A DNA stretch of 64,000 nt from Chryseobacterium limigenitum (GTDB lineage: Bacteria > Bacteroidota > Bacteroidia > Flavobacteriales > Weeksellaceae). The translations under genes and the position numbers were made by a program. The notes beneath the pieces were generated by a model. The model was not told the DNA's origin. It made no database searches and saw only the letters and a program-made list of their open reading frames with translations. Below, one piece after another: positions 14,516 to 44,131 of this stretch (positions are counted from its first letter, which is position 1; the number at the start of each line of letters is the position of its first letter). The stretch is from assembly GCF_900114875.1 (NCBI RefSeq), contig NZ_FPKW01000004.1, positions 1 through 64,000 of the forward strand, read 5' to 3'.

Positions 14516-14728
14516 GAGCTTGTTTAAATTTTTATTAACCACAAAAGATACAAAAGATTAACACATTAGTATTTTAAGTTAATTAATAGACCGTAAATAA
14601 AGAACACATTAGTTTTAAAAATCTTTGATTTTTATTCTTTTGAGAACTTTGTTTTATGATAATTAAAAAGAAGTTATGTATTCTAATAGCTTTTGTCCCT
14701 TTTGTGGTTAAAAATATAAAAGTTTAAG
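14516..14728 (+). repeat. CACAAAAG dispersed element (family A), copy 1
   Basis: A 213-bp imperfect palindrome-like element. The left edge is TTAACCACAAAAGATACAAAAG and the right edge is CCCTTTTGTGGTTAAA, its approximate inverse. The centre has AAAATCTTTGATTTTTATTC. Four more copies occur at 21534, 27105, 31515 and 43918. It fills the whole gap between the urea channel and the TonB receptor and ends at the receptor leader. Confidence 0.75.
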
Positions 14729-21533: not shown

Positions 21534-21741
21534 AACTTGTTTAAACCACAAAAGGCACAAAAGACTGAACATATTACTTATTTAAGTTCATGATGAACTG
21601 CAAACAAGAACACATAAGTTTTTAAAAATCTTTGATTTTTATCTTTTGAGGGCTTTTGTTTTCAAAACGGTTAAATTTTAAAATGTTCAATCATGGCTTT
21701 TGTATCTTTTGTGGTTTAAGTAAAAAGTTTAAACGGGCTTA
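21534..21741 (+). repeat. CACAAAAG dispersed element (family A), copy 2
   Basis: It begins CTTGTTTAAACCACAAAAGG and ends CTTTTGTGGTTTAAGTAAAA. The internal segment AAAATCTTTGATTTTTATC is the same as in copy 1 and in the same orientation. It lies in the gap between a plus-strand terminator and a minus-strand terminator. Confidence 0.75.
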
Positions 21742-25035: not shown

Positions 25036-25141
25036 CTTCTAGCTGAGTGAAATCGAAGATTCGACGTAGTCAAACGCCCTTGCGAACTTAAAAACAGTTA
25101 GTAGTCAAAGAAAACATTGCGCTCTTTGCGTTAAAAAAAGC
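25036..25141. repeat. CTTTGCG-type dispersed repeat (family B), copy 2, interrupted
   Basis: AGCTGAGTG followed, after a 22-bp insertion, by AAACGCCCTTGCGAACTT, then the spacer and GCGCTCTTTGCGTTAAAA. In the copies at 11204 and 63911, AG(C)T(G/A)AGT(G/A) runs straight into AAACGCC. This copy carries the same 22-bp element that interrupts family A copy 4. Confidence 0.7.
25050..25071 (-). repeat. 22-bp small palindromic insertion element, copy in family B
   Basis: This is the reverse complement of the element at 31706-31727 with one mismatch. Its core is AAATCGAAGATTCGACG. Removing it restores the uninterrupted family B sequence. No target duplication longer than a base or two can be seen. 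Confidence 0.65.
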
Positions 25142-25264: not shown

Positions 25265-27085
25265 ATGAATATAAAAATGATCAAAAAACCTTTACACAAT
25301 TTCCATATTCCTGTGATGGGATTAGCGTATACGATAGACAGTCCTATTCGTGTCGCGCAATACGGAATTTCTTCCGTTGTTTCTATAATTGATGATGAAA
25401 TTATAGAGAAAATGAAAAACTTTTATAATGAAAAATTCAATTTAAATTATTCAAGTATTTCAACAAAAATAGACGACTACCGTGCCAAAAGAATTACTGC
25501 TTATCTGGACATGGTGGACGACATCGTTAATGAAAAGTTTGACGCTTTCAAAGAAGAGATTGCAAAAAACAAAACAGCTTTGAAGAACTTTGTGGATATG
25601 CTTCCCAATACTTCAGAGCTGAAAAACGGGTTACAGAATCTTCTGAATCAAAAAGAAAGTTTTACATCTTCGATCAAACATTTTATTGAAAAAAATCTTG
25701 CTCCCGGGAGTATAGATGTCAATATCATGACGAAAGTTGATAAGGATAACTTCAAAAAAAATGAGCAGTTACCTGTCATATACAACGATGCTCATGCTTC
25801 TTTGCGCGGTTTTGCCAACAGTAAATTATCTTCTTCCGTGGTGCTTTCCGCGGGAATGAATCCTCGTTTGTACAGTTATATTGAAGAATTTAACGACTTT
25901 TTTCCTGATGAAAATGGTTTTCTGAAAAAGAAAATTATCTTGAAGGTGAGCGATTTTCGTTCTGCGATGATTCAGGGGAATTTTTTGGCTAAAAAAGGAC
26001 TTTGGGTTTCTGAATACAGAATAGAATCCGGTTTAAACTGTGGTGGTCATGCTTTTGCAACAGAAGGTCTCTTGCTTGGCCCGATCATGGAAGAATTTAA
26101 ACAGAAAAAAAACGAACTGATAGATTCTGCCCATGCTTTAATGCTCAATGCTTTACAGCAAAAAGGGAAAATTACAGTTTCTGAGCCTTTGGAAATGAAA
26201 ATCACCGTTCAGGGTGGAGTAGGAACATCGGAAGAACATGATTTTTTACTTAAAACCTATGATGTAAACAGTGTCGGTTGGGGCTCCCCGTTTCTACTCG
26301 TTCCGGAAGCTACTTCAGTTGATCAGGAAACGCGGGAATTACTTTTAAATTCTAAAGAAAATGATTTTTATTTAAGTAATCTTTCGCCTTTGGGAGTGCC
26401 TTTTAATACCGTAAGAGGAACGTCCAACGAGATTTTTAGACAAAACAAAAACAATAAAAAACGTTATGGAAGTTCATGTCCTAAAAAATTATTGGCTTTA
26501 AGTAAAGAATTTTCGGCTGAAGGAATTTGTACAGCTTCAAAAAAATATCAGGATATTAAACTTGAAATTTTAGAAGCAGAAAAACATCAAATAACAAAGG
26601 AACAATTCAAAAAAAGAAAGGAAGACATTACTGAAAAAGCGTGTTTATGTGTAGGTTTGGTAAACGCTGCCTACATGGAGCAAAAGTTGGAAATAAAAGG
26701 AGAAAAGCAGGGCGTGGTGATCTGTCCGGGGCCAAATCTTGCTTTTTTTGATAAAGAAGTTTCTCTTTCGCAGATGGTACAGCATATTTACGGAAATACC
26801 AATATCCTTCCCGATAATGCCCGTCCAAATATGTTCATCAACGAATTGAAAATGTATATTGATCACTTGAAAAAAGAAGTTTCAGATTTCTCAGGAACAG
26901 TGACAAAATCACAGGATAAAAAATGGAAAACCTTTAAAGAAAATCTGTTTGAGGGAATTTCGTATTATGAAAGTCTGTTTACTCGATCAAATTTCTTTCA
27001 ATCAGAATTAAATACAATTAATAATCAGCTTCAACACTATAAAATGATGCTTTCGGGGATTGAACTTCCAATATTTGAAAAATAA
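25265..27085 (+). CDS. Unrecognised 606-residue cytoplasmic protein, possible FMN TIM-barrel
   Basis: No signal peptide or membrane segment. The opening IPVMGLAYTIDSPIRVAQYG resembles the start of FMN-dependent TIM barrels such as nitronate monooxygenases. A later ITVQGGVGTSEEHDFLLKTYDVNSVGWGSPFLLVPEATSVD looks like a Gly-rich phosphate-binding barrel turn. Conserved-looking Cys are found in ESGLNCGGHAFATEG, YGSSCPKK and KACLCVGLVN. A long, partly helical region (residues ~45-150) is inserted after the first strand. The gene is solitary, flanked by repeat families B and A. The family could not be named, and the barrel suggestion is weak. Confidence 0.5.
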   Translation: MNIKMIKKPLHNFHIPVMGLAYTIDSPIRVAQYGISSVVSIIDDEIIEKMKNFYNEKFNLNYSSISTKIDDYRAKRITAYLDMVDDIVNEKFDAFKEEIAKNKTALKNFVDMLPNTSELKNGLQNLLNQKESFTSSIKHFIEKNLAPGSIDVNIMTKVDKDNFKKNEQLPVIYNDAHASLRGFANSKLSSSVVLSAGMNPRLYSYIEEFNDFFPDENGFLKKKIILKVSDFRSAMIQGNFLAKKGLWVSEYRIESGLNCGGHAFATEGLLLGPIMEEFKQKKNELIDSAHALMLNALQQKGKITVSEPLEMKITVQGGVGTSEEHDFLLKTYDVNSVGWGSPFLLVPEATSVDQETRELLLNSKENDFYLSNLSPLGVPFNTVRGTSNEIFRQNKNNKKRYGSSCPKKLLALSKEFSAEGICTASKKYQDIKLEILEAEKHQITKEQFKKRKEDITEKACLCVGLVNAAYMEQKLEIKGEKQGVVICPGPNLAFFDKEVSLSQMVQHIYGNTNILPDNARPNMFINELKMYIDHLKKEVSDFSGTVTKSQDKKWKTFKENLFEGISYYESLFTRSNFFQSELNTINNQLQHYKMMLSGIELPIFEK

Positions 27086-27104
27086 TATAAAATCTTATAC
27101 TTTA

Positions 27105-27325
27105 AGTCTGTTTAAACTTTTTGTTTTAACCACAAAAGAGACAAAAGTTATTATTAAACCATTCAAAGTTTAGATATGTTGAAAACAAAAGCCCTCAAAA
27201 GAATAAAAATCCAAGATTTTTAAAAACTTATGTGTTCTTATTTACTGTTAATTATGAACTTAAATAAAATAATATGTTTAATCTTTTGCTTCTTTTGTGG
27301 TTAAAATAAAAAGTTTAGACAAGTT
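27105..27325 (-). repeat. CACAAAAG dispersed element (family A), copy 3
   Basis: GTCTGTTTAAACTTTTTG, then TTTAACCACAAAAGAGACAAAAG at the left and CTTCTTTTGTGGTTAAA at the right. The centre CTCAAAAGAATAAAAATCC is reversed relative to copies 1 and 2. It occupies most of the 319-bp gap before the nuclease gene. Confidence 0.75.
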
Positions 27326-27404: not shown

Positions 27405-27926
27405 ATGAAAAAGATGATGTGTATACTGCTGTTTTTTGCGTCTATGTGCGTGTTTTCTCAAATCAAGGCGAAAATTATCGGTATAAAAGATGGAGATACT
27501 GTTGTCGCTTTACTGGCAGACAAAACTCAGGAAATTTTACGTTTGGCAGAGGTAGATTGTCCCGAAAAGAAGCAGCCTTTTGGGAATAATGCCAAACAAT
27601 TTACAAGTTCTGAAGTCTTTGGAAAAGAGGTTATATTTTACAGAATTAAAAAAGACAGATACCGAAGAACAATTGCTAAAATATTTTATGATGACGACAA
27701 ATATCTTTCTGCTGAAATCATCAAATCAGGCTATGGATGGTGGTATTTTAAAGCTTCAAAAAATAGTAAGCTGAAGGAATATGAAATTTTAGCAAAGAAA
27801 CAGAAACGAGGTTTATGGTCAGATAAAAATGCAATATCACCGTGGGATTTTAGGAAAATAAAGATAGAAAAATCGAAAGCTGCTAAATTAAAAATAAAAA
27901 CCTCCGAATTAAATTCAGAGGTTTAG
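27405..27926 (+). CDS. Secreted thermonuclease-like protein (SNase domain)
   Basis: 173 residues from the ATG at 27405 (MKKMMCILLFFASMCVFSQ). The frame opens 36 bp earlier, but that would add a non-signal peptide leader. The SNase OB-fold shows GIKDGDTVVAL, LRLAEVDCPE (catalytic Arg and Glu), a DRYRRTIAKIF segment with the second catalytic Arg, and GYGWWYFKASKN. It would cleave DNA or RNA outside the cell. The last codons also form half of a hairpin terminator shared with the convergent gene. Confidence 0.88.
   Translation: MKKMMCILLFFASMCVFSQIKAKIIGIKDGDTVVALLADKTQEILRLAEVDCPEKKQPFGNNAKQFTSSEVFGKEVIFYRIKKDRYRRTIAKIFYDDDKYLSAEIIKSGYGWWYFKASKNSKLKEYEILAKKQKRGLWSDKNAISPWDFRKIKIEKSKAAKLKIKTSELNSEV
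27898..27924. terminator. Bidirectional terminator inside the 3' end of the nuclease coding sequence
   Basis: AAACCTCCGAATT and AATTCAGAGGTTT form 13-bp arms with one mismatch and almost no loop. The right arm ends in the nuclease stop codon, and the convergent minus-strand gene stops 10 bp further on. The last eight or so nuclease codons therefore double as a terminator stem. Confidence 0.7.
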
Positions 27927-27936
27927 TATTTAAAAA

Positions 27937-28974
27937 TTAACTTTCTTTAAGTCCTTGCGTCACATCTAATCCTTCCATCACATCTAAACTTTGAAACTTT
28001 TGTTGCAGTTGCATGGTTTCAGGTACTTTTACCATAGAATTAACCGTAACGTGAGGCCAGTTAACAGGCTGTGCAGATCCTGTAGCCGGGAAAACCAGAT
28101 TAATCGTCTGAGAATACTGTAATATCTGACTTGGATTTCCTGCGCTGTCTACAATATCTTCAATCCAGAAGGTTGCATCCATTTTTGTAGCGTTTACATT
28201 GGTCTGGATAAACGGGATATTCAAAATTCCTCCGTTGGCATCGGGTGTGTCGGTAGACATTTGAATAACAGTCATATTGCTCACTCCGCCTGTTCCTACT
28301 AAAGCTTCCAATGTAGATTCAAGGAAAGCATTTGGATTAACTTGATTGAACGGCGCAAACTGCGGATTTCCGATAATCTGATCCGAATAACCAAGCTGAG
28401 TGATTCTGTCACCATTCAGTAAAGTTGGAATTGAAGAAGCCGGACTAAAAAAATCTGTTCCCGGATTACCCACCTCAACTGAGCTTCCAAGCGCCAACAA
28501 TGAATTTCCGTGAGGAATGGTCGACATACGGGCAATCGTGTATCCTCCGTTTGGCTGACCTAAGTTTAAAAATAATCCCGTCTCAACATGAATCGTTGAT
28601 CCTGCAGGAAAACCACGCTCGTTGCAAAAGCTACTGTCGCAAGCACTTACGATTTGCTGTTCATACAAAAGACCGAAGATCATTTGTTCTACTTGCTGTC
28701 CGTTTACGACAGGACCACGATTTCCGGCCTGTACGACAACAGGATTAAAGGTCAGTGTTTCTGTGTAAGGAATGACTTCAAAAACAAATCCTTTATCCTG
28801 TCCGGGAACAGAAATAGTATTCCAACCCGCTGAAATAGCTGTTGCAGGAACGTCGACGTTTTTCCAGGTTCCTACCAATGGTGCCAAAGCGCCAAGATCC
28901 GAGGCAGAAACTTTTTCAAGAGGAAGGACTTGCGCCCCTAAGGTTAAGCCTCTCATTTTGCTTTCTAGATTCAT
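27937..28974 (-). CDS. Nitrobindin-like beta-barrel protein, shorter paralogue
   Basis: 345 residues without signal peptide. The start LAPLVGTWKNVDV matches the L-x-G-T-W entry of the nitrobindin/FABP-like heme-binding barrel family. FVFEVIPYTETLTF, IHVETGLFLNL and STIPHGNSLLALGSS follow in the order known for that fold. The C-terminal half (GGILNIPF, MDATFWIED, LQYSQTINLVF, WPHVTVNS) is shared with the 518-residue protein at 29931-31487, showing a common ancestor and a second related domain. It is last in the minus-strand oxidoreductase cluster. Heme binding is inferred, and an axial His is not proven. Confidence 0.55.
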   Translation of the reverse strand: MNLESKMRGLTLGAQVLPLEKVSASDLGALAPLVGTWKNVDVPATAISAGWNTISVPGQDKGFVFEVIPYTETLTFNPVVVQAGNRGPVVNGQQVEQMIFGLLYEQQIVSACDSSFCNERGFPAGSTIHVETGLFLNLGQPNGGYTIARMSTIPHGNSLLALGSSVEVGNPGTDFFSPASSIPTLLNGDRITQLGYSDQIIGNPQFAPFNQVNPNAFLESTLEALVGTGGVSNMTVIQMSTDTPDANGGILNIPFIQTNVNATKMDATFWIEDIVDSAGNPSQILQYSQTINLVFPATGSAQPVNWPHVTVNSMVKVPETMQLQQKFQSLDVMEGLDVTQGLKES

Positions 28975-29012
28975 AATTTTTAGTTTTTAAGGTTAAAAGT
29001 TTTTAGTTTACA

Positions 29013-29819
29013 TTAAATATAATAAGCTCTCGTCTGGATTGCAGCCGGAGCCGACATACTCGTACGAACAGCAAAAGCAGGCGTATCTCCGATTAGGAAC
29101 TCAATATCGGTTTTCATTGGATGATCAGAATTTCCGTAGGTCATTTGTACACGTTTTTTGCTTTCTTCTGAGTTTAAAAAATGAAGATTGGTTGGCTGAA
29201 GAATATTCCAGCGGCAGCCGATTAATTTTCCTTCAAACTTTCCATATTCTGTGATAGGAGAGAAAGCTGATATTTCAGGAATTAGATTCGCAACATCTGC
29301 AACACAAGTGAAAATTGATTCTTTACTGTCAGTTGGATCATTACAGGTTACTGTCCATGTATTTTGGCCGGGAACGTTTAATGAAGGGAGATTGGTGGTA
29401 AATGTAGTTTTGAATTTCGGCTCGCCAAATAATTCGATTCCGGCTTTGATGGCCATATCAGCGTCACAAGGAACCCAAACACGTTTGTGTCCCATTAGCT
29501 TTGTCTGTTCTTCACCACGAAGGTATTCTTCTGCAGTTACAAAGGCAACGGCATCTTTTTGAGATTCAGGATAAGAAACGATGTTCAATTCAATTTCCTG
29601 AGTGGTGCTTGATCCGTTGGGAAATTGCCCTGTATAATTTTGAAAATTAAAACTTACCAAAGCTTTTCCATCGAAATCTGCGGCGATGAGTCCTGTGTTT
29701 TCAAGGTATTTTAAAACTTTTTCGCGGTCAATAAGAAAGGCAACCTCAATATTAAAAAGGGTTGCGTAATAGAATGGTAATCCAAATCCTGATGGAATTG
29801 GAGGTAATTGATTGCTCAT
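29013..29819 (-). CDS. Acetoacetate-decarboxylase-superfamily protein
   Basis: 268 residues. MAIKAGIELFGEPKFKTTF contains Lys135, which aligns with the Schiff-base Lys of acetoacetate decarboxylase (GFPKK). The next residue is Phe136 instead of the second Lys, which lowers the pKa in the true decarboxylase. The sequence is otherwise a full-length ADC-fold barrel (YATLFNIEVAFLID, AFVTAEEYL). Other family members catalyse aldol or dehydration chemistry, so decarboxylation is not assured. It is separated from the 345-residue gene by 38 bp and from the 518-residue gene by a hairpin. Confidence 0.7.
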   Translation of the reverse strand: MSNQLPPIPSGFGLPFYYATLFNIEVAFLIDREKVLKYLENTGLIAADFDGKALVSFNFQNYTGQFPNGSSTTQEIELNIVSYPESQKDAVAFVTAEEYLRGEEQTKLMGHKRVWVPCDADMAIKAGIELFGEPKFKTTFTTNLPSLNVPGQNTWTVTCNDPTDSKESIFTCVADVANLIPEISAFSPITEYGKFEGKLIGCRWNILQPTNLHFLNSEESKKRVQMTYGNSDHPMKTDIEFLIGDTPAFAVRTSMSAPAAIQTRAYYI

Positions 29820-29859
29820 GATAAATTGGGTTTTTAGTTTTTTAGTTTTAAAATTTAAA

Positions 29860-29890
29860 AACCTTATAGGTTTCTGAAACCTATAAGGTT
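29860..29890. terminator. 14-bp perfect hairpin between cluster genes
   Basis: AACCTTATAGGTTT and AAACCTATAAGGTT pair perfectly around CTG. The stem shares CCTTATAGG with the hairpin after ureC (9229-9255). It may split the cluster into two transcription units or be a dispersed repeat. Confidence 0.65.
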
Positions 29891-29930
29891 GAGTAGTGTT
29901 TATTTGAATTAATAATACTAAATCAAAATT

Positions 29931-31487
29931 TTATTCTTTATGATATGGACATCCTGAAGGTGGATTGGCAATGCGCTCAGAAACTGCAGCAGTTGTTGTC
30001 ATGCTCATTGCAGGAGGCGCATTGAAAAATTCCTGTTCGATTATTTTTCTCTGATCCGCAGGAATATCCTCGATTTTACGAAGCGTATTCACCTGAATGT
30101 GCGGCCAGCTTGTTGTACCGCCATCATTTCCAAAATCAAACTCGAAAAATATAATTTGTTCATATTGTAGCTGAAGAATTTCTTTTCCATCTTCAATTAC
30201 AGTTTCGATCCAAAGATTAAAATCTATTTCAACTGTCGGTACAAAACGATTAACAAAAGGAACGTTTAAAATTCCACCTTGCGCTCCAGTTTTCATTTTT
30301 GATGATAACTGAACAAGTACATAATTGGCGACATTTTGTCCGCTCAATGTGTCTCTTAATCTCATATCCGGTCTTACGCAATAAGGATATAGCTCATCTG
30401 CCAATATTCTCTGCGTATAAATTTTGTTTGAGCCCGGGTCATTTTCATCATTTAAAGTCTCGTGAACCCATGCCGGAGCCGGTTCGTCAAGGTTAATAGC
30501 ACCTCCGGCACCTCCCATTGTCGGGGAAATAGCAAGATGAGGAGGATCCCAAGTTGCAATACCGGTAGGAAATTGCGGAGCGCCGTTTCTAAGGTAATAT
30601 ACTTTATTATCTTTACTTTCAGGGGTAATATCTCCCAATACCGTAATCGTGCTTCCGTGAGGGATAACTCCACTTCTTGAGATCGAATAATCAGGAATAA
30701 AATAAGGTCCTGTAATTCCATCCATTGGCTTTATTTCTTGTGCCGGAATAATTTCATAATATTGCTGTCCTTCTTTTAATTGGCTCAAAAGAATGTATGA
30801 AGAGTTACCGTTTTCGTCTCTTACTTCAACCAAAGGTTCGTTTCTGTATTCTCCTTTATATCCGTATTTTTCAAAATCTTCATTAGAAAAGGCATGAATT
30901 CCACGGTCTCTTTTGATGGTTTCTTCAGTTGCAGCATAATTATAAACGTCGCTTAACCAAAGATACATTCCGTTTTCTTCGTGAATTCCGGCGTATTGTA
31001 AATTCGGATTTCCTTCTACTTTATTTACGCTTTTAATGGTTTGATCGTATTTTACAGCACCACAAAATAATTCCGTTGCACCACCACGATTACGAACACC
31101 ACCGGGAACGATTTCGAATGTTAATTTTTCGATATATTCTTCCGTATCAAAACTGAATTTTCCTGGAATTGTATTTTGGTTGGTTCCCGGAGAAGGCATA
31201 ATTGTTGTGTGAATTCCACTTCCTAATGATGGACGGTCGATATTTTTATTGTAATTAGCATTATAGCTTACCCACGTTCCATTTAATGCTTCTAAAACAC
31301 CATACTTTACATTATTCGCAATATCCTGTAAATTTTCTTCTCTAAAAGGCGTAACCGGATCGTCAATCAAAAGTTTCGAGTATCCTTCCATTAAATTGGC
31401 AAGATAACCTTGCTGATCCTGACTTGGTTGTGGTGCTCTTAAAAATTCACTTCCTTTTTCAAGACTTTCCTTTTTTCTTTTTAACAT
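29931..31487 (-). CDS. Nitrobindin-like beta-barrel protein, longer paralogue
   Basis: 518 residues, no signal peptide. LEALNGTWVSYNANY (residue ~65) gives the G-T-W motif. YIEKLTFEIVPGGVRNRGGATELFCGAVKYDQTI, IHEENGMYLWLS, then VIPHGSTITVLGDI follow. The last third, GGILNVPFV, IDFNLWIETVIE, LQLQYEQIIFFEF and WPHIQVNTLRKI, aligns block by block with the 345-residue protein at 27937-28974. The additional 170 residues are mostly inserted between barrel strands and in the N-terminal part. The pair looks like an ancient duplication inside one cluster. Function unknown; a heme or hydrophobic ligand is a guess. Confidence 0.55.
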   Translation of the reverse strand: MLKRKKESLEKGSEFLRAPQPSQDQQGYLANLMEGYSKLLIDDPVTPFREENLQDIANNVKYGVLEALNGTWVSYNANYNKNIDRPSLGSGIHTTIMPSPGTNQNTIPGKFSFDTEEYIEKLTFEIVPGGVRNRGGATELFCGAVKYDQTIKSVNKVEGNPNLQYAGIHEENGMYLWLSDVYNYAATEETIKRDRGIHAFSNEDFEKYGYKGEYRNEPLVEVRDENGNSSYILLSQLKEGQQYYEIIPAQEIKPMDGITGPYFIPDYSISRSGVIPHGSTITVLGDITPESKDNKVYYLRNGAPQFPTGIATWDPPHLAISPTMGGAGGAINLDEPAPAWVHETLNDENDPGSNKIYTQRILADELYPYCVRPDMRLRDTLSGQNVANYVLVQLSSKMKTGAQGGILNVPFVNRFVPTVEIDFNLWIETVIEDGKEILQLQYEQIIFFEFDFGNDGGTTSWPHIQVNTLRKIEDIPADQRKIIEQEFFNAPPAMSMTTTAAVSERIANPPSGCPYHKE

Positions 31488-31514
31488 GATATATTGTTTT
31501 TATGGTTATTAATT

Positions 31515-31749
31515 AAGTTGTTTAAAACTCGTAAGATTTAACCGCAAAAGAAGCAAAAGCTCTTATTGATTTATTAAAACTGTTATTTAGAAATCAAAAG
31601 TTCATCAAAGCATAAAAATCAATGATTTTTAGAAACTTATGTGTTCTTATATACGCTTTAATGATTAACTTAAAATAACTAAAGTGTTAATCTTTTGTTT
31701 CTTTTGACTCCGTCGAATCTTCGATTTGTGGTTAAAAATTTTAATAAAT
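31515..31749 (-). repeat. CACAAAAG dispersed element (family A), copy 4, interrupted
   Basis: It begins AAGTTGTTTAAAACTC and TTTAACCGCAAAAGAAGCAAAAG. Its right end should read CTTTTGTGGTTAAA but is broken by a 22-bp insertion. Orientation as in copy 3. It fills the gap between the 518-residue and ferritin-like genes and runs up to the stop codon of the latter. Confidence 0.75.
31706..31727 (+). repeat. 22-bp small palindromic insertion element, copy in family A
   Basis: Sequence with core GTCGAATCTTCGATTT inserted into CTTTT|GTGGTTA at the right end of family A copy 4. The same element, inverted and with one mismatch, lies at 25050-25071 inside a family B repeat. Confidence 0.65.
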
Positions 31750-33234
31750 TTAAGTTGTTGGATATTCAAAAGTTGGTCCTGCATTGTATTGAGAATCCAA
31801 TGGTTGGCTCATCAATCCGATAGCCTGCTCTTTCAAAGCATACATATACATAATTGATTTTTCTAACTCTTTGGCGTCGCCTTCCACAGCAGCCTGAATC
31901 GCATCCAATAAATTTTTATAGGTTTGATTAAATGCTTTTCCTTGCGCATACAATTGTGGATTCGACTGATAATCTGCCATTTTAGGGTTTGGTTTCATCG
32001 GATAGGCAGCGTTCCAATCTACTGGCAGTGCTTTTCCGACAGGTGGAGTAGTGACAGGCATCATTCCGTTTTCGTCCATAAAGGGTTTATAGTTTCCATC
32101 CAAATAATAATGTTCATGGAAAATTTCTTTAAATCTGAAATAATGTGCCAATTCCATCCCTTCTTCAAACTGAGAAGGATCAACATCAAAAATGGTATCA
32201 TCTGCGCCTTCACCCTGACCTTTAATTTCCTGAAAAACAGCAATGACTCCTGATAAAGCTTCAACAGCATGTAATTTTCCGCCACTTCCGTAATACTGCT
32301 CCGGACGGATCTGTTTTGCCGGATTTCCTGTGAAAATTCCTCCTGTATTTAATTCTTCAAATGTTTGAGGTAATTTTCCGTTGGCTTTGTAATAAGCAAT
32401 GATTTGAAAAACAACGATATAAAAGAATAAAACATCATAATATTCACCAATCGTATGAACATTTTCCATGATGAAACCTTTCATATTTTCTAAAGTCCAG
32501 AAGTTATTTTCCTCTACTGATGCACTTTTAAGCAAGGATTGATTTTCTTCAATATGATCATATACCGGAGCTTTTACCAATGGGCTGCTCGGACTTTCAA
32601 TGGCGATAAATGTCGCGATACTGTTTGTAGAAAACGTTTCCAATCCTACGAAGAAATCAACATTCATAGGTAATTTCATTGGATAAGTAGGGTAGTTTTG
32701 AGGCTTGTTTACGGATGGCTGAATATTCACGGCATTCATCACGTTACAAACCATGATCATATGAAGCATTTCTTCCACGGCAACACTTCTGATGATTTGT
32801 GAAGCTAATAGATTCGTCCCATCTTTAATGGAATACAAAGCCGTAAGATAAGGTGGAATTGTTGAATGCTCAATAAGAATCGCTGTTTGTAAAAGGTCTT
32901 GTAAAACAGAACGGTAATTCATGTTTTCTAGACTACTTTTTTTAGATGAGGGAGCTATTTTTGCATCTAATTTGTCGACGCTGATCTCCTGCAAAACTGA
33001 TCCGAACTGAGAACTCAAATAATCATTAAATTCTTTGGTCTGATTATTCAGTAATAAATTGGTTAATGTTTTACTGTGATATTTTAGTCCTTCCAGCCAA
33101 TCTTCTTTGCTGATTTTTGTGTCGAATAATAAAGAATGTAAAGAAATTGCTTCTTCAACAATGGTATTTTTGTCGAAAGCACCTTTTAATAAAATTTGTT
33201 CAGGTTCTGCTTTATTGATTAATCTTTGTCTCAT
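31750..33234 (-). CDS. Ferritin-like protein of the VioB/RebD (iminophenylpyruvate dimer synthase) type
   Basis: 494 residues. The segment QTAILIEHSTIPPYLTALYSI has Glu122-His123 and AVEEMLHMIMVCNVM has Glu155-x-x-His158. These are the two helix motifs of the ferritin-like domain (PF12902) shared by VioB, RebD and StaD. Late EGMELAHYFRFKEIF supplies a further Glu-x-x-His. It is much shorter than VioB (about 1000 residues) and lacks its heme-type second half. Expected chemistry is oxidative coupling or rearrangement at an iron centre, and the substrate is unknown. It is downstream of the GMC oxidoreductase gene with only 4 bp between them. Confidence 0.72.
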   Translation of the reverse strand: MRQRLINKAEPEQILLKGAFDKNTIVEEAISLHSLLFDTKISKEDWLEGLKYHSKTLTNLLLNNQTKEFNDYLSSQFGSVLQEISVDKLDAKIAPSSKKSSLENMNYRSVLQDLLQTAILIEHSTIPPYLTALYSIKDGTNLLASQIIRSVAVEEMLHMIMVCNVMNAVNIQPSVNKPQNYPTYPMKLPMNVDFFVGLETFSTNSIATFIAIESPSSPLVKAPVYDHIEENQSLLKSASVEENNFWTLENMKGFIMENVHTIGEYYDVLFFYIVVFQIIAYYKANGKLPQTFEELNTGGIFTGNPAKQIRPEQYYGSGGKLHAVEALSGVIAVFQEIKGQGEGADDTIFDVDPSQFEEGMELAHYFRFKEIFHEHYYLDGNYKPFMDENGMMPVTTPPVGKALPVDWNAAYPMKPNPKMADYQSNPQLYAQGKAFNQTYKNLLDAIQAAVEGDAKELEKSIMYMYALKEQAIGLMSQPLDSQYNAGPTFEYPTT

Positions 33235-33238
33235 GGTT

Positions 33239-35329
33239 TCAGTTTTTAAATTTGTTTTCTAAATCACTCAGAATAGATTCTACCGAACGAATCGTGAATG
33301 CTGATAAGGTTAAAGTAGGGTTCGAAGTTCCCAAAGTCGTCATATTTCCTGCACCAACGATGTATAAATTCGGGTGATCCCAAGATTTACAATAGCTGTT
33401 GGTTACAGAATCATCTGCATTGTCGCCCATTCTGTGAGTTCCTACGATGTGGCCGGCTCCGTTGTAAGAATACCTTACGTTGTTGTAGATAAAAGTGTTT
33501 TTGTCTGCTTCGGTATATTTGGTGAAATCATCGATATTCAACCTTTTAAACATTTGATCGGAAGCTAATTTTGCCTGTTCCATTGCTTTCATTTCATATT
33601 CCGTCAGTTCATAATTAATGACAGGACGGGGAATTCCCAAAGCATCCAGATATTGATCATTGATGGTCACTCTATTATTCGGATTGGGTAATTGTTCGAT
33701 CTCAAAATGAAATAAAACCTGTCTTGAAAGTCTGTAAGTCAAAGCTTCTTTCAATTCAGCTCCAAAAAGACCTTGTCCCAAAAACTCTGAAAGATCTGAT
33801 CCCGGAGAAAATGCAGGCCAGCTCCATCCCCAATTGTCAAGTGGAGAAATCCACGCTGAGAATTCACTTCTGAAATTCCCGTCACGGAAAGACGAAATAT
33901 TGGTCGTAGAACCCGGCCCTCTGTATGAATATATCGGCTCTGGAAATAATCCCCAAGTCAGCATCACCATATGATCCATCAAGTTTCTTCCTACCTGATC
34001 GCTTCTGTTGGCAACGGTTTTTTCAATTTTTTGTCCGTTTTCGATAACCGTATATTTTGAATTCAGTAAAATTTTCGGATTTTCAAAAGCATTGGCTGCA
34101 AGAATCACAATTGAATCTGAGGTGTCAACAACTTCTTCCACAAAATCTGTTTTCTCTTTAGAAATATATCTTCTCAAATGAATTTTTGAAATTTTCTCCC
34201 GGTCTGCCTGATCAACACTCAATTTGTACACAACACTCTGTGCCTGAACGCTGATGAATTTGTGTTTTTGAAGATTTTCGTTTTTATTGAACTTATACAA
34301 TGCTTTTTTCAAGGTTTTCAACGCATTATATTTTGCCTGAACGGGGCAGATTGGAACACATGAAGCATTTCCTTCGCAACGTTCTCCCATGTATGGATTC
34401 CAGACAGAGCCCAGTGCTTTATATTCTTCGTTTTCAATATTATTTAATGATAATTTATATCCCGAATCTGTAGAATTGGCTTTAATGATTTTTGCTTTTC
34501 CGTAAGCCGGATTGGGCGTAGAATTTCTTCCCTGAGGAGATGGAACCATCGTTAACGGAAACTCTTCAAAATTTAATTGAACACTGGTTCCTGCAAGACC
34601 ATTGATGATCTTTTGATCCATATAACTCTGAGGAATTTCGTCCATCGGAAAAACATAATCTTTACCGTAATAATCTTCCATACTTTCCGAAATCGGATAT
34701 TCCTGAGCTGAGACATTTCCTGAAACACCAATCTCAAATTCGGCCATTTCATAGTACGGTTTTAGAGCATCGTAATCGATTGGCCAGTTGATAGGTGTTT
34801 TAACCTCAGAATCAGGTTTATTGATTTCAATGCCATATTTTTCAGTCAGTCTGAAATCATTCGGAAGCATTCTTGGAGTGGTTCCCAACCAGTGAAGCGT
34901 TGTTCCGCCACCAATTCTGATGGCATCACTTGCAAACGGCATCGGACCAAACTGAACCAAGTATCCTTTTTTATCCGGAAACGGAGGAATAATTTTTTCC
35001 ATGTCCAAAACATCCGGTGATGGAGCCTGTTTTAAATTTGGATAAGGAGAATTCGGAACTTTGGCTTCCTCCATATAAAATTTACGGATGTACTCGTTGT
35101 AGGTTGTCAATGATGACGATGAGTCCAGTTCTAATCCGGCTTCCAGTCCGGCTTCGTACATTAAAATTGATAATTCTCTTACGTTTTCAGGATTGTCAAT
35201 TTCTGCACGGTAAACCATTTTGCCTTTTTCTGTATCAAAAACATGATCGGTCAGAAGTTTAGCGATCAATGATCCTGCGATCCCCGTTCCTACGATGACC
35301 ACATCTTTTTTGAATTCTATATTGCTCAT
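33239..35329 (-). CDS. GMC-type FAD oxidoreductase with C-x5-C-x3-C iron-sulfur motif
   Basis: 696 residues from the ATG at 35329, which overlaps the stop of the upstream small-subunit gene by ATGA. An ATG ten codons earlier is in frame but lies inside that gene. The FAD motif VIVGTGIAG is at residues 11-19. Cys318, Cys324 and Cys328 in GERCEGNASCVPICPVQAKY fit the C-x5-C-x3-C ligand pattern of the 3Fe-4S cluster in FAD-dependent glucose/sorbitol/fructose dehydrogenase large subunits. The C-terminal HIVGTHRMG and NPTLTLSAF carry the conserved catalytic His and Asn. It oxidises an alcohol and passes electrons on. The usual cytochrome subunit is not found nearby. Confidence 0.82.
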   Translation of the reverse strand: MSNIEFKKDVVIVGTGIAGSLIAKLLTDHVFDTEKGKMVYRAEIDNPENVRELSILMYEAGLEAGLELDSSSSLTTYNEYIRKFYMEEAKVPNSPYPNLKQAPSPDVLDMEKIIPPFPDKKGYLVQFGPMPFASDAIRIGGGTTLHWLGTTPRMLPNDFRLTEKYGIEINKPDSEVKTPINWPIDYDALKPYYEMAEFEIGVSGNVSAQEYPISESMEDYYGKDYVFPMDEIPQSYMDQKIINGLAGTSVQLNFEEFPLTMVPSPQGRNSTPNPAYGKAKIIKANSTDSGYKLSLNNIENEEYKALGSVWNPYMGERCEGNASCVPICPVQAKYNALKTLKKALYKFNKNENLQKHKFISVQAQSVVYKLSVDQADREKISKIHLRRYISKEKTDFVEEVVDTSDSIVILAANAFENPKILLNSKYTVIENGQKIEKTVANRSDQVGRNLMDHMVMLTWGLFPEPIYSYRGPGSTTNISSFRDGNFRSEFSAWISPLDNWGWSWPAFSPGSDLSEFLGQGLFGAELKEALTYRLSRQVLFHFEIEQLPNPNNRVTINDQYLDALGIPRPVINYELTEYEMKAMEQAKLASDQMFKRLNIDDFTKYTEADKNTFIYNNVRYSYNGAGHIVGTHRMGDNADDSVTNSYCKSWDHPNLYIVGAGNMTTLGTSNPTLTLSAFTIRSVESILSDLENKFKN

Positions 35330-35769
35330 GAGTTGCTGTTTACAGGTTGAACGGCCCAAGATTTGAAACCAGGTTGTTTTGCTCCCGGTGGATGGGCGTG
35401 CATAACAGTCCAGACCAGACTTTCTTTGTAGGATAATTCATTCACATAAGCGCCTTCCCAAGTTCCCAGATACCACATCGTGATGATATTGTTCGACATA
35501 TCCTGCATTCCCGGATCTGCCATAATTTCGGATTGGATAGCGTTTCTCAATTGATCCTGACTGAAAGAATTTTCAAGGATAGATTTTGAAACGTTCAGAA
35601 ATTCTAGGAATGTTGCGGTTTCTATTTGACCTAAAATATGTTTGTAATAGGTCTCCGCCAAACCGGTGGATTGCAGCTCGTTCGCAGAAAATCCGGTGAG
35701 AGTTCCTGAAATCGACATAAACACGTCGTAGTAGTAATCATCGACGTTGAGGATTTTGTTAATAATCAT
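35326..35769 (-). CDS. FAD-SLDH-type small subunit (sorbitol/fructose/gluconate dehydrogenase small subunit family)
   Basis: 147 residues, without a twin-arginine signal peptide. The pattern NNIITMWYLGTWEG...SYKESLVWTVMHAHPPGAKQPGFKSWAVQP near the C-terminus matches the small subunit of periplasmic GMC dehydrogenases (ITRLWYTG..., SY...LVW...G..PPG...WA). It helps fold or export the catalytic subunit in known complexes. It overlaps the GMC gene by four bases, so the two are translationally coupled. Missing a TAT or Sec leader is odd for this family and suggests a cytoplasmic version. Confidence 0.68.
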   Translation of the reverse strand: MIINKILNVDDYYYDVFMSISGTLTGFSANELQSTGLAETYYKHILGQIETATFLEFLNVSKSILENSFSQDQLRNAIQSEIMADPGMQDMSNNIITMWYLGTWEGAYVNELSYKESLVWTVMHAHPPGAKQPGFKSWAVQPVNSNS

Positions 35770-36296: not shown

Positions 36297-37001
36297 TTAT
36301 GGTAAATTTTTAGTTTTCAAAACTTGCTGAATATATCCGGAAATTATTTTCGTATTTCCACTATAATGATGGTTTCCCGGAATATGTTTCATGTGATAAT
36401 TATTACTCAAATTGATTTCATGATAAGGAAAATGAGCATATTCAAAATCACTTAGAATCAATGTTACAGGAGCATCAGTCATTTTATTAATCTCAGGAGT
36501 GACGAGCATACTGCCTTTTGGCTCCATCCCGAAATATTCATTAAGATGGATTTTAAAATCGGTGGTTTTTGAAGGGCCAATGATAAAAACATGCTGAATT
36601 TTATTTTTAAGATCATCCGTAAAGTAGTTGTAAACAAAAGGCGTGACATCGGCTCCAAAAGAGTAGCCTATCAAAATGACCTTTTGATTTTTTCGTCCCT
36701 GAAGCTGTTTATCGATGTAGCTTTCAATCGCAGAAGAAGTCTGTTCCGGAGTTTTTTTGTTCCAGAAATAGTTTTTTGTATTTAAACCGAAAACATCATA
36801 TCCCATCATATAAAAATCATTGGCAAGTCCTTTTGAAAAAGAGTTGAAACCCGCATCACCACTGAGATAAAAGATAATCGGTTTATCCGTATTTGAATTC
36901 CATGAAGTGATGTTGAAATCATCTTTGGACATACAGGAGTTCAATAAAAAAAATCCCGCAAAAGAAAGTATTCTCAAAATAAACTTGAATGCATCTTTCA
37001 T
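36297..37001 (-). CDS. AcvB/VirJ-family lipoprotein (probable lysyl-phosphatidylglycerol hydrolase)
   Basis: 234 residues with a lipobox (FFLLNSC, acylated Cys23). The VirJ domain is clear: FYLSGDAGFNSFSKGLA, GYDVFGLNTKNYFWNKKTPEQTSSAIE and the nucleophile elbow LIGYSFGADVTPF. The family (Pfam VirJ/AcvB) includes Agrobacterium AcvB, which removes lysine from lysyl-phosphatidylglycerol. The start codon overlaps the stop of the upstream mprF/lpiA-like gene by four bases, the same operon order as lpiA-acvB. It would act outside the inner membrane as a brake on lipid lysylation. Confidence 0.82.
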   Translation of the reverse strand: MKDAFKFILRILSFAGFFLLNSCMSKDDFNITSWNSNTDKPIIFYLSGDAGFNSFSKGLANDFYMMGYDVFGLNTKNYFWNKKTPEQTSSAIESYIDKQLQGRKNQKVILIGYSFGADVTPFVYNYFTDDLKNKIQHVFIIGPSKTTDFKIHLNEYFGMEPKGSMLVTPEINKMTDAPVTLILSDFEYAHFPYHEINLSNNYHMKHIPGNHHYSGNTKIISGYIQQVLKTKNLP

Positions 37002-39574
37002 GGTTTCATAACTTTATTAAGAGAAGCAGGAATTTGTATTAAATCGAAATCACTGTTGTACACCAGATATTTATTTTCCCATGTATTGGCATACTTTTCC
37101 TTAAAATTTCTAAGGGTCTGATATGATTTAAAGCTTCCAACTCTCTGGTAAACAAATTGTAAGGCATCTTCTGCCGCATTGCTCGGTTCCTGCATTCCCG
37201 CCATGGGAGTCATTCCCATATTTATATATTTCAGGTCTTTGATTTTGGCGTATTCCACCAATTTTACGATAAGTAAATCTACGCTGCCACTTGGAGCATC
37301 TTCCGTTTTTCGGATCATATCGTAACTGCATTCGTCTGGAGCACAGTAAGGTATGATGTTGAGAAAAGCAACACACTTACGATCAGTATCAAAAATAAGG
37401 ATAAGGTCCTGAAATTTTGCTGTTTCGGAGTCAAACATTCCTTCCGCAAAAACAATTTCTTTTTTATCGGATTCTGTTAACCAAAGATCAGATACTTTTT
37501 TTATTTGCTCAACAATATTTTCGGAGTGGGGAGCATATAATATTTCGGCTTTGTAACCTGCTTTTTCCAAACCATTAATGCCGTTTCGTATTGATTTTCT
37601 GTCTTTTCCGGTCAGGCTGAATTTTTCTGCATCCAATATAGCATCCTGCCCGATAAAAAGTTTTTGTTTTTTTAATGGATTAAAATGAATCAATCCGCTT
37701 TCATCAACCCGATAATAGCAGGTTTTTAAATTATTTTTCTGGCAGTAATGATCAAACTCATTGATAAGGTCTGTTTTATCGTTTTCGGGGCATACAGGTT
37801 CTTCCAGCACAACAGCAAATCCGTTGGCAGTTCTGAAAGCCACAAATCCGTGGATATCTTCCGAAAAATAAAACTGCTTTTCCTGAGTAAGTTTAAAATA
37901 ATCCAACGAAGAGTTTCCGTATTCTTTAACCAGATTTTCCGCATTACTGGAATTTTCGGAATCGTCTTGTTCTTTATGAATATTCATCCTGTAAAATGAA
38001 AAAATAAGGATCAACCAGAAAGCAGCACCTAGAATATAATTAAGATTTTGAAAATCTCTTGCAAATGGAGTGTTTGAAATAAGCCCCGAATCTTTAAATA
38101 ATAAAAATGTATGTAAAGTATAATAAACAGCTTGTTCTTTGGTGAAATTAATTCCAAAATGATTTTCACTGATAAAATAGAATGCGAGACAGTCAAAAAT
38201 AAAAATAATGGCAAAAATCCCTAAAAACCTGCTGAAACCTCTATGTATCGACATTCTTTTTGCTCTTAATATATATTCCTTTCGGCTGTATAATAAAAGT
38301 CCCAACGTGAGTAGTGCAAATAAAGCTTCTTCATAATCCAGTGCTTTTGTCAGGTTGAAAACTACCGATGTAATTGTAAGAACAACAGCAAAATACCATG
38401 CTCTTTTAGATCCACGGAAAAGATTAGCCGAAGTCACCAGAAGCAGAATTCCGGAAATAAGCGTCAGTATTTTGGAAAGATGAATCGCTTCCAGTGGAAG
38501 ATAGTTTTTAAGAATATGAATCCTGTCTGCAAGAGCCGGAGTGATCACAGAAAGAATATTGATGATTCCTAATAAAAAAATCATAAACACAGGCAATACC
38601 CTCGCAAAAAGCTTTCTTCCGCTCCAGAGATAGGAAATAATTCCCAACACAAGAGGAAGCCAGAATTCAAAAAAACGGTATACCAACGTAACGCCCAACC
38701 CATCGGAATGACTGTATCCAAAATTAGCGAGGATAAAAGTTAAAGAAAATTCTACCGCTCCCAATCCGCGGAGAAACGGAGAAACGATCATAAGCAATAC
38801 AGAAACCACATACGAAATCGCCGCCGCAGAAAATGAAGCAGGAACACCAAACGCATACATCGCAATCAAAAGGTGAAAAACACCACAACATTCGATCGCT
38901 ATTGAAACAAGAACTGTGAGCCAGAAATATTTTTTATCAACTTCACTGTTAAATATTTCTTCCGCAGAATTGATTATTTTAGGAAATTTTTTCTCAAAAA
39001 ATCTATACGCAGCGTTTTTTCTTCGGAATGAAATAAAAATAAAATAACAAAGTACAAGAACGCCTGTCAGCACTGCAATACCGATCCAGCTGTCTCCGAA
39101 ATTTTTATTGATAAACACAGCATAAGCAATAAGAGGAATTCCGACGATGAGAACAGTTAACAATCCCACAAAGCCATAAACAACACTCGCCTGATGAATT
39201 TTAGAGGATTTATAACCTTTGGTTCGTATATTTCTCGGAAGATAAGCCAGAGAACTCACGCCGCCGGCTGGCAAAAAGATGCTCAGAAAATTTCGTTTTA
39301 AAAATAAACCAATGGCGTCAGGTAATTTTACATCCAATCCAGTGCTCCGGAAACTTGTGACATACATTAATCCCTGAAGAGCAATATATATTAATGTTAA
39401 TGCAGCTCCGGATAATATCCAGTAGAGATCAGCATTACGAAGTTCAGGACCAATAGATGCCATTTCATGTCTTTCACTCCTGAAAAATACGAATGCCAGA
39501 AGTAAGATAATAACAGCCAAAGCTTCTTTCCAGCCGACTTGCTTAATGATTTTTGATATTTTATTAATCTTCAT
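36998..39574 (-). CDS. mprF: Phosphatidylglycerol lysyltransferase (MprF/LpiA family)
   Basis: 858 residues. The N-terminal half has many membrane segments of the flippase-like domain, including FLKRNFLSIFLPAGGVSSLAY. Further membrane segments follow, and from ~residue 545 the cytoplasmic DUF2156 GNAT-like synthase domain, with FSLTGKDRKSIRNGINGLEKAGY and YINMGMTPMAG. It transfers lysine from Lys-tRNA to phosphatidylglycerol and can move the product outward, reducing sensitivity to cationic peptides. It shares an operon with the acvB-like gene. Full length with no frame breaks. Confidence 0.88.
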   Translation of the reverse strand: MKINKISKIIKQVGWKEALAVIILLLAFVFFRSERHEMASIGPELRNADLYWILSGAALTLIYIALQGLMYVTSFRSTGLDVKLPDAIGLFLKRNFLSIFLPAGGVSSLAYLPRNIRTKGYKSSKIHQASVVYGFVGLLTVLIVGIPLIAYAVFINKNFGDSWIGIAVLTGVLVLCYFIFISFRRKNAAYRFFEKKFPKIINSAEEIFNSEVDKKYFWLTVLVSIAIECCGVFHLLIAMYAFGVPASFSAAAISYVVSVLLMIVSPFLRGLGAVEFSLTFILANFGYSHSDGLGVTLVYRFFEFWLPLVLGIISYLWSGRKLFARVLPVFMIFLLGIINILSVITPALADRIHILKNYLPLEAIHLSKILTLISGILLLVTSANLFRGSKRAWYFAVVLTITSVVFNLTKALDYEEALFALLTLGLLLYSRKEYILRAKRMSIHRGFSRFLGIFAIIFIFDCLAFYFISENHFGINFTKEQAVYYTLHTFLLFKDSGLISNTPFARDFQNLNYILGAAFWLILIFSFYRMNIHKEQDDSENSSNAENLVKEYGNSSLDYFKLTQEKQFYFSEDIHGFVAFRTANGFAVVLEEPVCPENDKTDLINEFDHYCQKNNLKTCYYRVDESGLIHFNPLKKQKLFIGQDAILDAEKFSLTGKDRKSIRNGINGLEKAGYKAEILYAPHSENIVEQIKKVSDLWLTESDKKEIVFAEGMFDSETAKFQDLILIFDTDRKCVAFLNIIPYCAPDECSYDMIRKTEDAPSGSVDLLIVKLVEYAKIKDLKYINMGMTPMAGMQEPSNAAEDALQFVYQRVGSFKSYQTLRNFKEKYANTWENKYLVYNSDFDLIQIPASLNKVMKP

Positions 39575-43917: not shown

Positions 43918-44131
43918 GTGAGCCTATTTAAACTATTAAAATTTAACCACAAAAGTCACAAAAGTTATTTGGATAGTTAACTGTTTTAAATGATTAGAAA
44001 ACAACAGTTAATCAAAGAATAAAAATCGAAGATTTTTTAAACTTATGTGTTCTTATTTGCTGCTTATTGATAAGCTTAAAAAGCAGTAAGTTAATCTTTT
44101 GTGTCTAAAATAAAAGTTTTAAAAAGCTTAT
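43918..44131 (-). repeat. CACAAAAG dispersed element (family A), copy 5
   Basis: TTTAACCACAAAAGTCACAAAAG at the left. The centre GAATAAAAATCGAAGATTTT is followed by AACTTATGTGTTCTT, the same order as copies 3 and 4. The right end is truncated: CTTTTGTGTCTAAAA lacks the GGTTAAA edge. It fills the gap between xylA and susC. Confidence 0.7.

Follow-up and report, generated by a model that had tools for sequence, protein, structure and literature searches.

The 64,000-nucleotide stretch of Chryseobacterium limigenitum DNA analyzed here (the window; contig NZ_FPKW01000004.1, positions 1 to 64,000 of the forward strand) carries six open reading frames (ORFs) on its minus strand, designated genes A to F in the 5′ to 3′ order of their transcript. 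As an earlier note made from the sequence had described, the six genes run together. Gene A (35326-35769) encodes an SLDH-type small subunit of 147 residues, gene B (33239-35329) a GMC flavoprotein dehydrogenase with a predicted [3Fe-4S] motif of the form C-x5-C-x3-C, gene C (31750-33234) a PF12902 ferritin-like protein of 494 residues, gene D (29931-31487) an FMP-type haem peroxidase-like protein of 518 residues, gene E (29013-29819) an ADC-like protein of 268 residues with a conserved lysine in a GEPK motif, and gene F (27937-28974) a second FMP-family haem-binding protein of 345 residues. The tight packing that the note had read for the first three genes is borne out by the sequence, with A and B overlapping by 4 bp in ATGA and a gap of 4 bp between B and C. 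The B protein has about 696 residues when counted from the ATG at 35329, and the listed ORF holds an upstream TTG at 35359. The module that these genes form is real, conserved and apparently undescribed, and a plausible mechanism can be put forward for it, namely that A, B and C constitute a cytosolic sugar or polyol dehydrogenase complex in which a ferritin-like dimetal subunit receives the electrons and which a haem peroxidase accompanies. We give this proposal a probability of about one half.

Judged from its residues, the core is a flavin and iron-sulfur dehydrogenase of the fructose/glucose-dehydrogenase type. The small-subunit and dehydrogenase assignments of the earlier note hold, with scores above the Pfam cut-offs for both A (FAD-SLDH, 25.1 bits against 24.2) and B (GMC_oxred_C, 80.1 bits against 24.6). 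B matches the catalytic chains of fructose dehydrogenase (FDH) and of the flavin adenine dinucleotide (FAD)-dependent glucose dehydrogenase of Burkholderia cepacia (BcGDH) with E values of 8.5e-51 to 1.3e-49, and the histidine that would be linked to FAD, the three cysteines of the predicted [3Fe-4S] cluster and a His/Asn pair all align with these chains, as residues and not as cofactors. The roles given to these residues come from the B. cepacia enzyme, as set out in the accessible part of its description (PMC6719666). Two samples were used to follow the module: 78 genomes of the window's genus (the genus sample), and a set of named loci, which are the best 80 of 565 relatives of C found with a ferritin-like alignment on genome contigs. 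The C-x5-C-x3-C motif is present in 72 of the 73 GMC ORFs longer than 500 residues at the named loci and in all 26 GMC ORFs from the genus. GmcA of Rhizobium leguminosarum, a GMC protein of 550 residues, was set aside as a relevant precedent since nothing links it to the module in the accessible text of its report (PMC7105596).

FDH and BcGDH belong to the direct electron transfer (DET)-type FAD dehydrogenases, which resemble A-B in having a GMC subunit with the FAD-linked histidine, [3Fe-4S] cysteines and His/Asn pair and an adjacent small-subunit gene, but the module cluster lacks the triheme cytochrome c gene and the twin-arginine translocation (Tat) signal of these systems and has a ferritin-like gene instead. 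Three classical operons fetched for contrast each encode a small subunit, a GMC protein and a triheme cytochrome c with three CXXCH motifs, in the order small-GMC-cytochrome in two and cytochrome-small-GMC in one. The twin-arginine motif is present in two of their three small subunits, and the Mesorhizobium one, as annotated, begins inside a hydrophobic leader without it. A of the window has no twin-arginine motif, and thus not the Tat signal of the DET-type complexes; a Tat-like motif was found in none of the 55 small-subunit ORFs called at the named loci, and the arginine pairs in 3 of 26 genus small-subunit ORFs lie 5′ of the likely start and have no leader. No CXXCH motif occurs in the six cluster proteins, a search that covered the cluster and did not extend to cytochromes c elsewhere in the genome. 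ORF calling at the 80 named loci gave 1256 ORFs; a single CXXCH motif is present in just one of these (122 residues, at locus L103), and two motifs in none. With the gene order small-GMC-ferritin-like, C stands third, in the position of the cytochrome gene in two of the classical operons, and the usual cytochrome partner of a sugar-oxidizing enzyme seems to have been swapped for a ferritin-like protein.

An alternative to electron transfer into C is that A-B is a sugar oxidase that reacts with O2 and makes H2O2. In this case C would be an iron-handling or structural partner, which may supply iron or protect the [3Fe-4S] cluster, and D and F would consume the peroxide, as DyP-type peroxidases may do elsewhere. 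The best NCBIfam match of B is indeed pyranose oxidase, at 71.3 bits and far under the cut-off of 544.9, and B shares the GMC fold of bacterial pyranose oxidases and glycoside 3-oxidases and resembles them in its C-terminal domain, matching 9fl2 from Oscillatoria princeps (E 2.6e-12) and 7qf8, which we take to be a glycoside 3-oxidase (E 1.6e-6). These matches, however, are far weaker than those to FDH and BcGDH, and B differs from the oxidases in having the FDH/GDH iron-sulfur motif and a small-subunit gene; the motif indicates a dehydrogenase that hands electrons on. We consider the oxidase alternative rather unlikely, and return below to the neighboring genes that bear on it.

The ferritin-like assignment of C also stands, with 175.7 bits to PF12902 (Ferritin-like) against a cut-off of 22.3; no NCBIfam model matched C at E values up to 1. 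An AlphaFold2 (AF2) model of C, with a mean predicted local distance difference test score (pLDDT) of 77.8 and a core above 90, has a ferritin-like fold. A fold search with the model returned the PF12902 protein CC_0557 of Caulobacter (3hl1) at a Z score of 27.3 (3.1 Å over 268 residues), and ferritins and Dps at Z scores of about 9-11, which may reflect the shared helical bundle alone; no family besides ferritin-like proteins stood out. C resembles 3hl1 in family and fold, but differs in that its gene lies next to those for a GMC dehydrogenase and the small subunit of that enzyme and in having, in the genus, an N-terminal extension. This extension comprises about 100 residues in C of the genus type, is predicted with low confidence to be helical, and is missing from six relatives in other groups, as judged from annotated starts. 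Invariant residues of C (45 of 45 aligned sequences) include E122, H123, E154, E155, H158, E213, E342, H364 and R367, all of which except R367 make up a candidate set of metal ligands. A role as an encapsulin cargo was also considered, and this was rejected since the window's own genome lacks a gene for the shell: the shell protein family PF04454 had no match there, and the control search matched in 3 of 14.

Within the genus sample, FMP genes occur in 35 of the 78 genomes, of which 33 have an intact D, one (G047) a frameshifted gene and one (G020) a remnant. Intact C is found in 28 genomes and B likewise in 28, with an insertion in G017; the two sets are identical and fall wholly within the 33 genomes that have an intact D. 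P values for this co-occurrence take no account of relatedness among the genomes. A further genome (G065) has a remnant of C, with stops, beside D. The order A-B-C is kept in all 28 genomes with an intact C, and A-B-C-D is contiguous in 26 of them, the exceptions being G026, where A-B-C-E-F lie together and D elsewhere, and G024, where A-B-C lie together and D elsewhere. A remnant of A lies beside the lone D of G043, from which it appears that the core was lost piece by piece. E is present in 5 of the 78 genomes, always alongside A-B-C, and F in 4, and all six genes are contiguous in only 2, the window's genome and that of a close relative whose six proteins are 94-98% identical to those of the window. 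The genes that flank the loci vary across the genus. A-B-C-D is thus the core in the genus, patchily distributed and decaying in places, and E and F are accessory. The earlier note had proposed looking for one conserved order of six genes in relatives; the A-B-C part of that order is conserved wherever C is intact, but the six genes are not a fixed unit, with E and F lying behind a terminator-like hairpin of 14 pairs on the minus strand (29860-29890) between D and E.

Beyond the genus sample, searches for D gave scores over its cut-off in 7 of 148 family genomes, every one of them from the window's genus, and in 3 of 395 phylum genomes. One of the latter belongs to another family of the same order, and no gene of the A-C set was found in the 20 kb fetched around its D. 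Plasmid searches recovered homologous genes for the GMC protein, the ferritin-like protein and the small subunit in rhizobia, a cyanobacterium, Pseudoalteromonas and Persicobacter. C has A within 600 bp on its own strand at 79 of the 80 named loci, and B at 78. These counts are based on tblastn, since ORF calling is lossy in GC-rich loci, and locus L103, where no query for A, B or a neighbor matched, was counted as a miss. The loci span seven phyla (Cyanobacteria, Actinomycetota, Pseudomonadota, Bacteroidota, Planctomycetota, Myxococcota and Gemmatimonadota), assigned by us from the names in the records. Distances among A, B and C are correlated, with r values of 0.75-0.89, but the range overlaps that for distances to the IolE-like neighbor (0.77-0.80), so that this measure adds little.

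The company that the module keeps in other phyla points to sugars. Anywhere in the fetched locus, an IolE-like barrel was found at 71 of the 80 named loci and a second isomerase-like barrel at 50, two queries that share one Pfam family and may cross-match. GH15 genes were present at 27 loci, GH63-like genes at 21, a thiamine pyrophosphate enzyme at 19, a DyP-type peroxidase at 15 (14 cyanobacterial and one from Methylovulum) and AUDH-like genes at 11; these names come from Pfam matches of one representative each, and that of GH15 from a plasmid annotation. These neighbors make a sugar or a sugar alcohol the probable substrate, and the AUDH-like and isomerase-like genes suggest a keto-sugar product. 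Such a product would agree with the logic of the levoglucosan pathway LgdA-LgdB1-LgdB2-LgdC (oxidation, elimination and hydration), in which, according to the accessible part of its description (PMC7676230), oxidation is followed by two isomerase-like eliminase/hydratase enzymes, as may be the case at the loci in other phyla. LgdA differs in using NAD, and the window's cluster has no such isomerases.

The same neighbors bear on the chemistry that the earlier note had raised for C. VioB and RebD carry the PF12902 domain, and the note had pointed to the coupling of amino-acid-derived imines by proteins of this type. Biosynthesis of the VioB/RebD type was set aside as unsupported, since the ten genes scanned include no amino-acid oxidase, the companion of the VioB, RebD and StaD coupling enzymes, and the neighbors in other phyla include glycosidase and sugar isomerase-like genes. 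A related but wider explanation gives the main catalytic role to C, which would make a secondary metabolite as a diiron oxygenase or a VioB/RebD-like coupling enzyme, with A-B serving only as its reductase. Besides the shared domain, this would fit an E homologue from Nocardia, whose cluster also encodes glycosyltransferases and a TauD-type dioxygenase, and PF12902 genes near fungal lodA/lodB-like genes, as mentioned in the accessible part of PMC4417212. The missing amino-acid oxidase, the frequency of sugar genes at other loci and the absence of any NCBIfam match for C nevertheless make this explanation improbable.

The peroxidase genes bear on the sugar oxidase alternative as well as on electron transfer into C. 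Peroxidase genes at the named loci, DyP-type at 15 of the 80 and FMP-type at 8, would suit an oxidase that releases H2O2, and an A-B-E locus without C would also be in keeping with it. On the other hand, the presence of B beside C at 78 of 80 loci, together with the invariant candidate ligands of C, exceeds the needs of a general iron helper. A peroxidase partner, FMP here and DyP at the cyanobacterial and Methylovulum loci, would fit peroxide as a by-product or a co-substrate.

D exceeds the equivalog cut-off of the NCBIfam model "peroxidase, FMP-type" (NF040571; 599 bits against 300), for which F scores 98.1 bits, and both pass the cut-off of 150 bits for the heme-binding FMP domain NF040572 (277.3 bits for D and 248.6 for F). 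In the literature searched, which included few subscription papers, neither a description of the FMP-type peroxidase nor an experimental source for its name was found. The earlier note had called D and F nitrobindin-like barrels. Support for this is weak: F matches the nitrobindin-type family PF08768 at a sub-threshold 17.1 bits (cut-off 25), as do four of eight further FMP-family proteins at 15-19 bits; the other four have no match, D matches no Pfam family, and the AF2 model of D (mean pLDDT 42.7) was unusable and was discarded. A profile search of the PDB with an FMP alignment gave no credible relative (best E 0.92), and a plasmid search for relatives of D gave six weak rhizobial matches only.

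A feature of D's own, beyond the NCBIfam definition, is its conserved C-terminal tail, GCPYHKE in the window and of the form GCP[Y/M/H]HK after a variable linker in orthologues. C513 and H516 of the tail are invariant in all 33 aligned sequences, the window's included, and a tail of this type is also present in the same-order genome G457. The possibility that the tail is a tag common to other proteins was rejected, as the pattern GCP[Y/F]HK occurs a single time in the window's own genome.

It could be argued from the FMP name, the haem-binding calls, the weak nitrobindin-type matches and the presence of D alone in 5 of the 78 genus genomes that D and F belong to a stress system that detoxifies peroxide or reactive nitrogen species, with the remaining genes linked by chance or co-regulation. 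We regard this as highly improbable. In the genus sample, D is present in all 28 genomes that have A-B-C. FMP genes were found in 11 of 35 module genomes, one copy each, and in 8 of these 11 the gene lies inside the module locus, the other 3 having it outside the fetched locus.

For E, the ADC fold proposed in the earlier note is weakly supported. The score for ADC (PF06314) is 17.4 bits, under the cut-off of 29.8, and ranges from 17.2 to 17.4 in two near-identical orthologues; the lysine of the EPK motif, presumably the ADC lysine, is kept in five of five divergent homologues. Of the four plasmid records with E homologues, three have the gene adjoining A-B(-C) genes, in the arrangements A-B-B′-C-E in Cupriavidus, E-A-B-C in Ruegeria and A-B-E without C in Streptomyces; the fourth is the Nocardia cluster mentioned above. 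At the Cupriavidus sp. P-10 plasmid locus (L188, 2847-10421), the first GMC gene is split and the second shortened, and genes that we read as SnoaL-like, E and a further GMC protein are also present.

Taken stepwise, the dehydrogenase proposal would run as follows. A, B and C would form one cytosolic enzyme complex in which A, lacking an export signal, would hold and protect B as its small subunit. B would use its FAD to oxidize a hydroxyl group on a sugar or on an alcohol derived from one, and the electrons would exit by way of a [3Fe-4S] cluster at the protein surface, the route taken in fructose dehydrogenase and FAD-glucose dehydrogenase. C would stand in for the triheme cytochrome c as the likely acceptor of these electrons, and once reduced it may pass them to O2 or a substrate. 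D, and F where present, may use or remove peroxide or oxidize the product, and E, as an ADC-like enzyme of the Schiff-base type, may act on a keto product, for instance a beta-keto acid. What the sequence itself contributes is the residues of B predicted to bind cofactors and to act in catalysis, the candidate ligand set of C, a cluster free of cytochrome c genes and a Tat signal, the conserved linkage of A-B-C and, separately, a linkage to D/F and, in a few records, to E. The window unites partners that are attached separately in other lineages. It is possible, though doubtful, that the module represents a novel class in which electrons pass from flavin to [3Fe-4S] cluster to a ferritin-like dimetal site that activates O2, a respiratory dehydrogenase having been made into a soluble oxidase or oxygenase by the swap of its third subunit; such a class would span at least seven phyla, with FMP or DyP peroxidases and ADC-like enzymes added per lineage.

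Several observations weigh against the proposed electron path. The acidic ligand of the third helix that is typical of ferritins is not kept in C, the position being Glu in 27, Leu in 12, Asp in 5 and Gln in 1 of 45 sequences, and a working diiron site is therefore not assured; the site may be unusual or non-diiron. The Streptomyces plasmid with A-B-E has no ferritin-like gene within about 5 kb, which means that C is not always needed, and the 80 loci, having been sampled through C itself, are silent on how often A-B occurs without it. Most other phyla have the order GMC-ferritin-small (B-C-A), so that the comparison with the place of the cytochrome gene is valid for the window's order only, and 5 of 35 genus loci carry an ORF with one or two CXXCH motifs at 0.9-3.6 kb from the core. 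D occurs without A-B-C in 5 of the 33 genomes that have it intact, FMP haem protein genes are found at just 8 of the 80 named loci, E is found at none of them, so that its link to the module rests on few cases, and the isomerase-like genes frequent in other phyla are missing from the window. Finally, gene neighborhood is evidence of linkage and not of electron transfer.

The remaining features of the locus concern its spacers and flanks. A second terminator-like hairpin lies on the minus strand 3′ of F (27898-27924); the region has four terminator-like sites, against a mean of 6.5 in shuffled sequence, which is no excess over chance. The spacer between C and D holds a repeated intergenic element (31495-31745) with 34 matches genome-wide, itself included, and five further copies in the window (27102-27297, 14542-14712, 43927-44106, 21549-21719 and 25050-25074). 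Elsewhere in the genus, called ORFs place C and D 14-34 bp apart in 23 of 25 loci, overlapping in one and 235 bp apart in the close relative G058. On the plus strand, 25265-27085 encodes a protein of 606 residues with no Pfam or NCBIfam match, an 87% identical copy of which adjoins the lone D of G043. Upstream of A and on the same strand as the cluster, 36297-39574 holds a gene for an MprF-like lysyl-phosphatidylglycerol synthase (530 bits, under the NCBIfam cut-off of 600) beside one for a VirJ-like hydrolase. Anti-phage defence was rejected as a role for the cluster, as none of the six proteins had a PADLOC match at E values up to 1.

No description of the module was found in the literature searched, and the view of the earlier note that the cluster matches no pathway known to it is in agreement with this. 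A three-gene partnership that is kept at 78-79 of 80 loci in seven phyla, with the predicted functional residues of B intact, points to a considerable gap in what is known of bacterial sugar metabolism. If electrons do pass from the iron-sulfur cluster to the ferritin-like protein, this would be a new way of powering a diiron center without NAD(P)H reductases, and the complex would amount to a soluble form, occurring in nature, of enzymes valued for glucose sensors. The window also connects this module with two families, a haem peroxidase family of which little has been described and an ADC-like one, and in doing so provides a testable functional setting for both.

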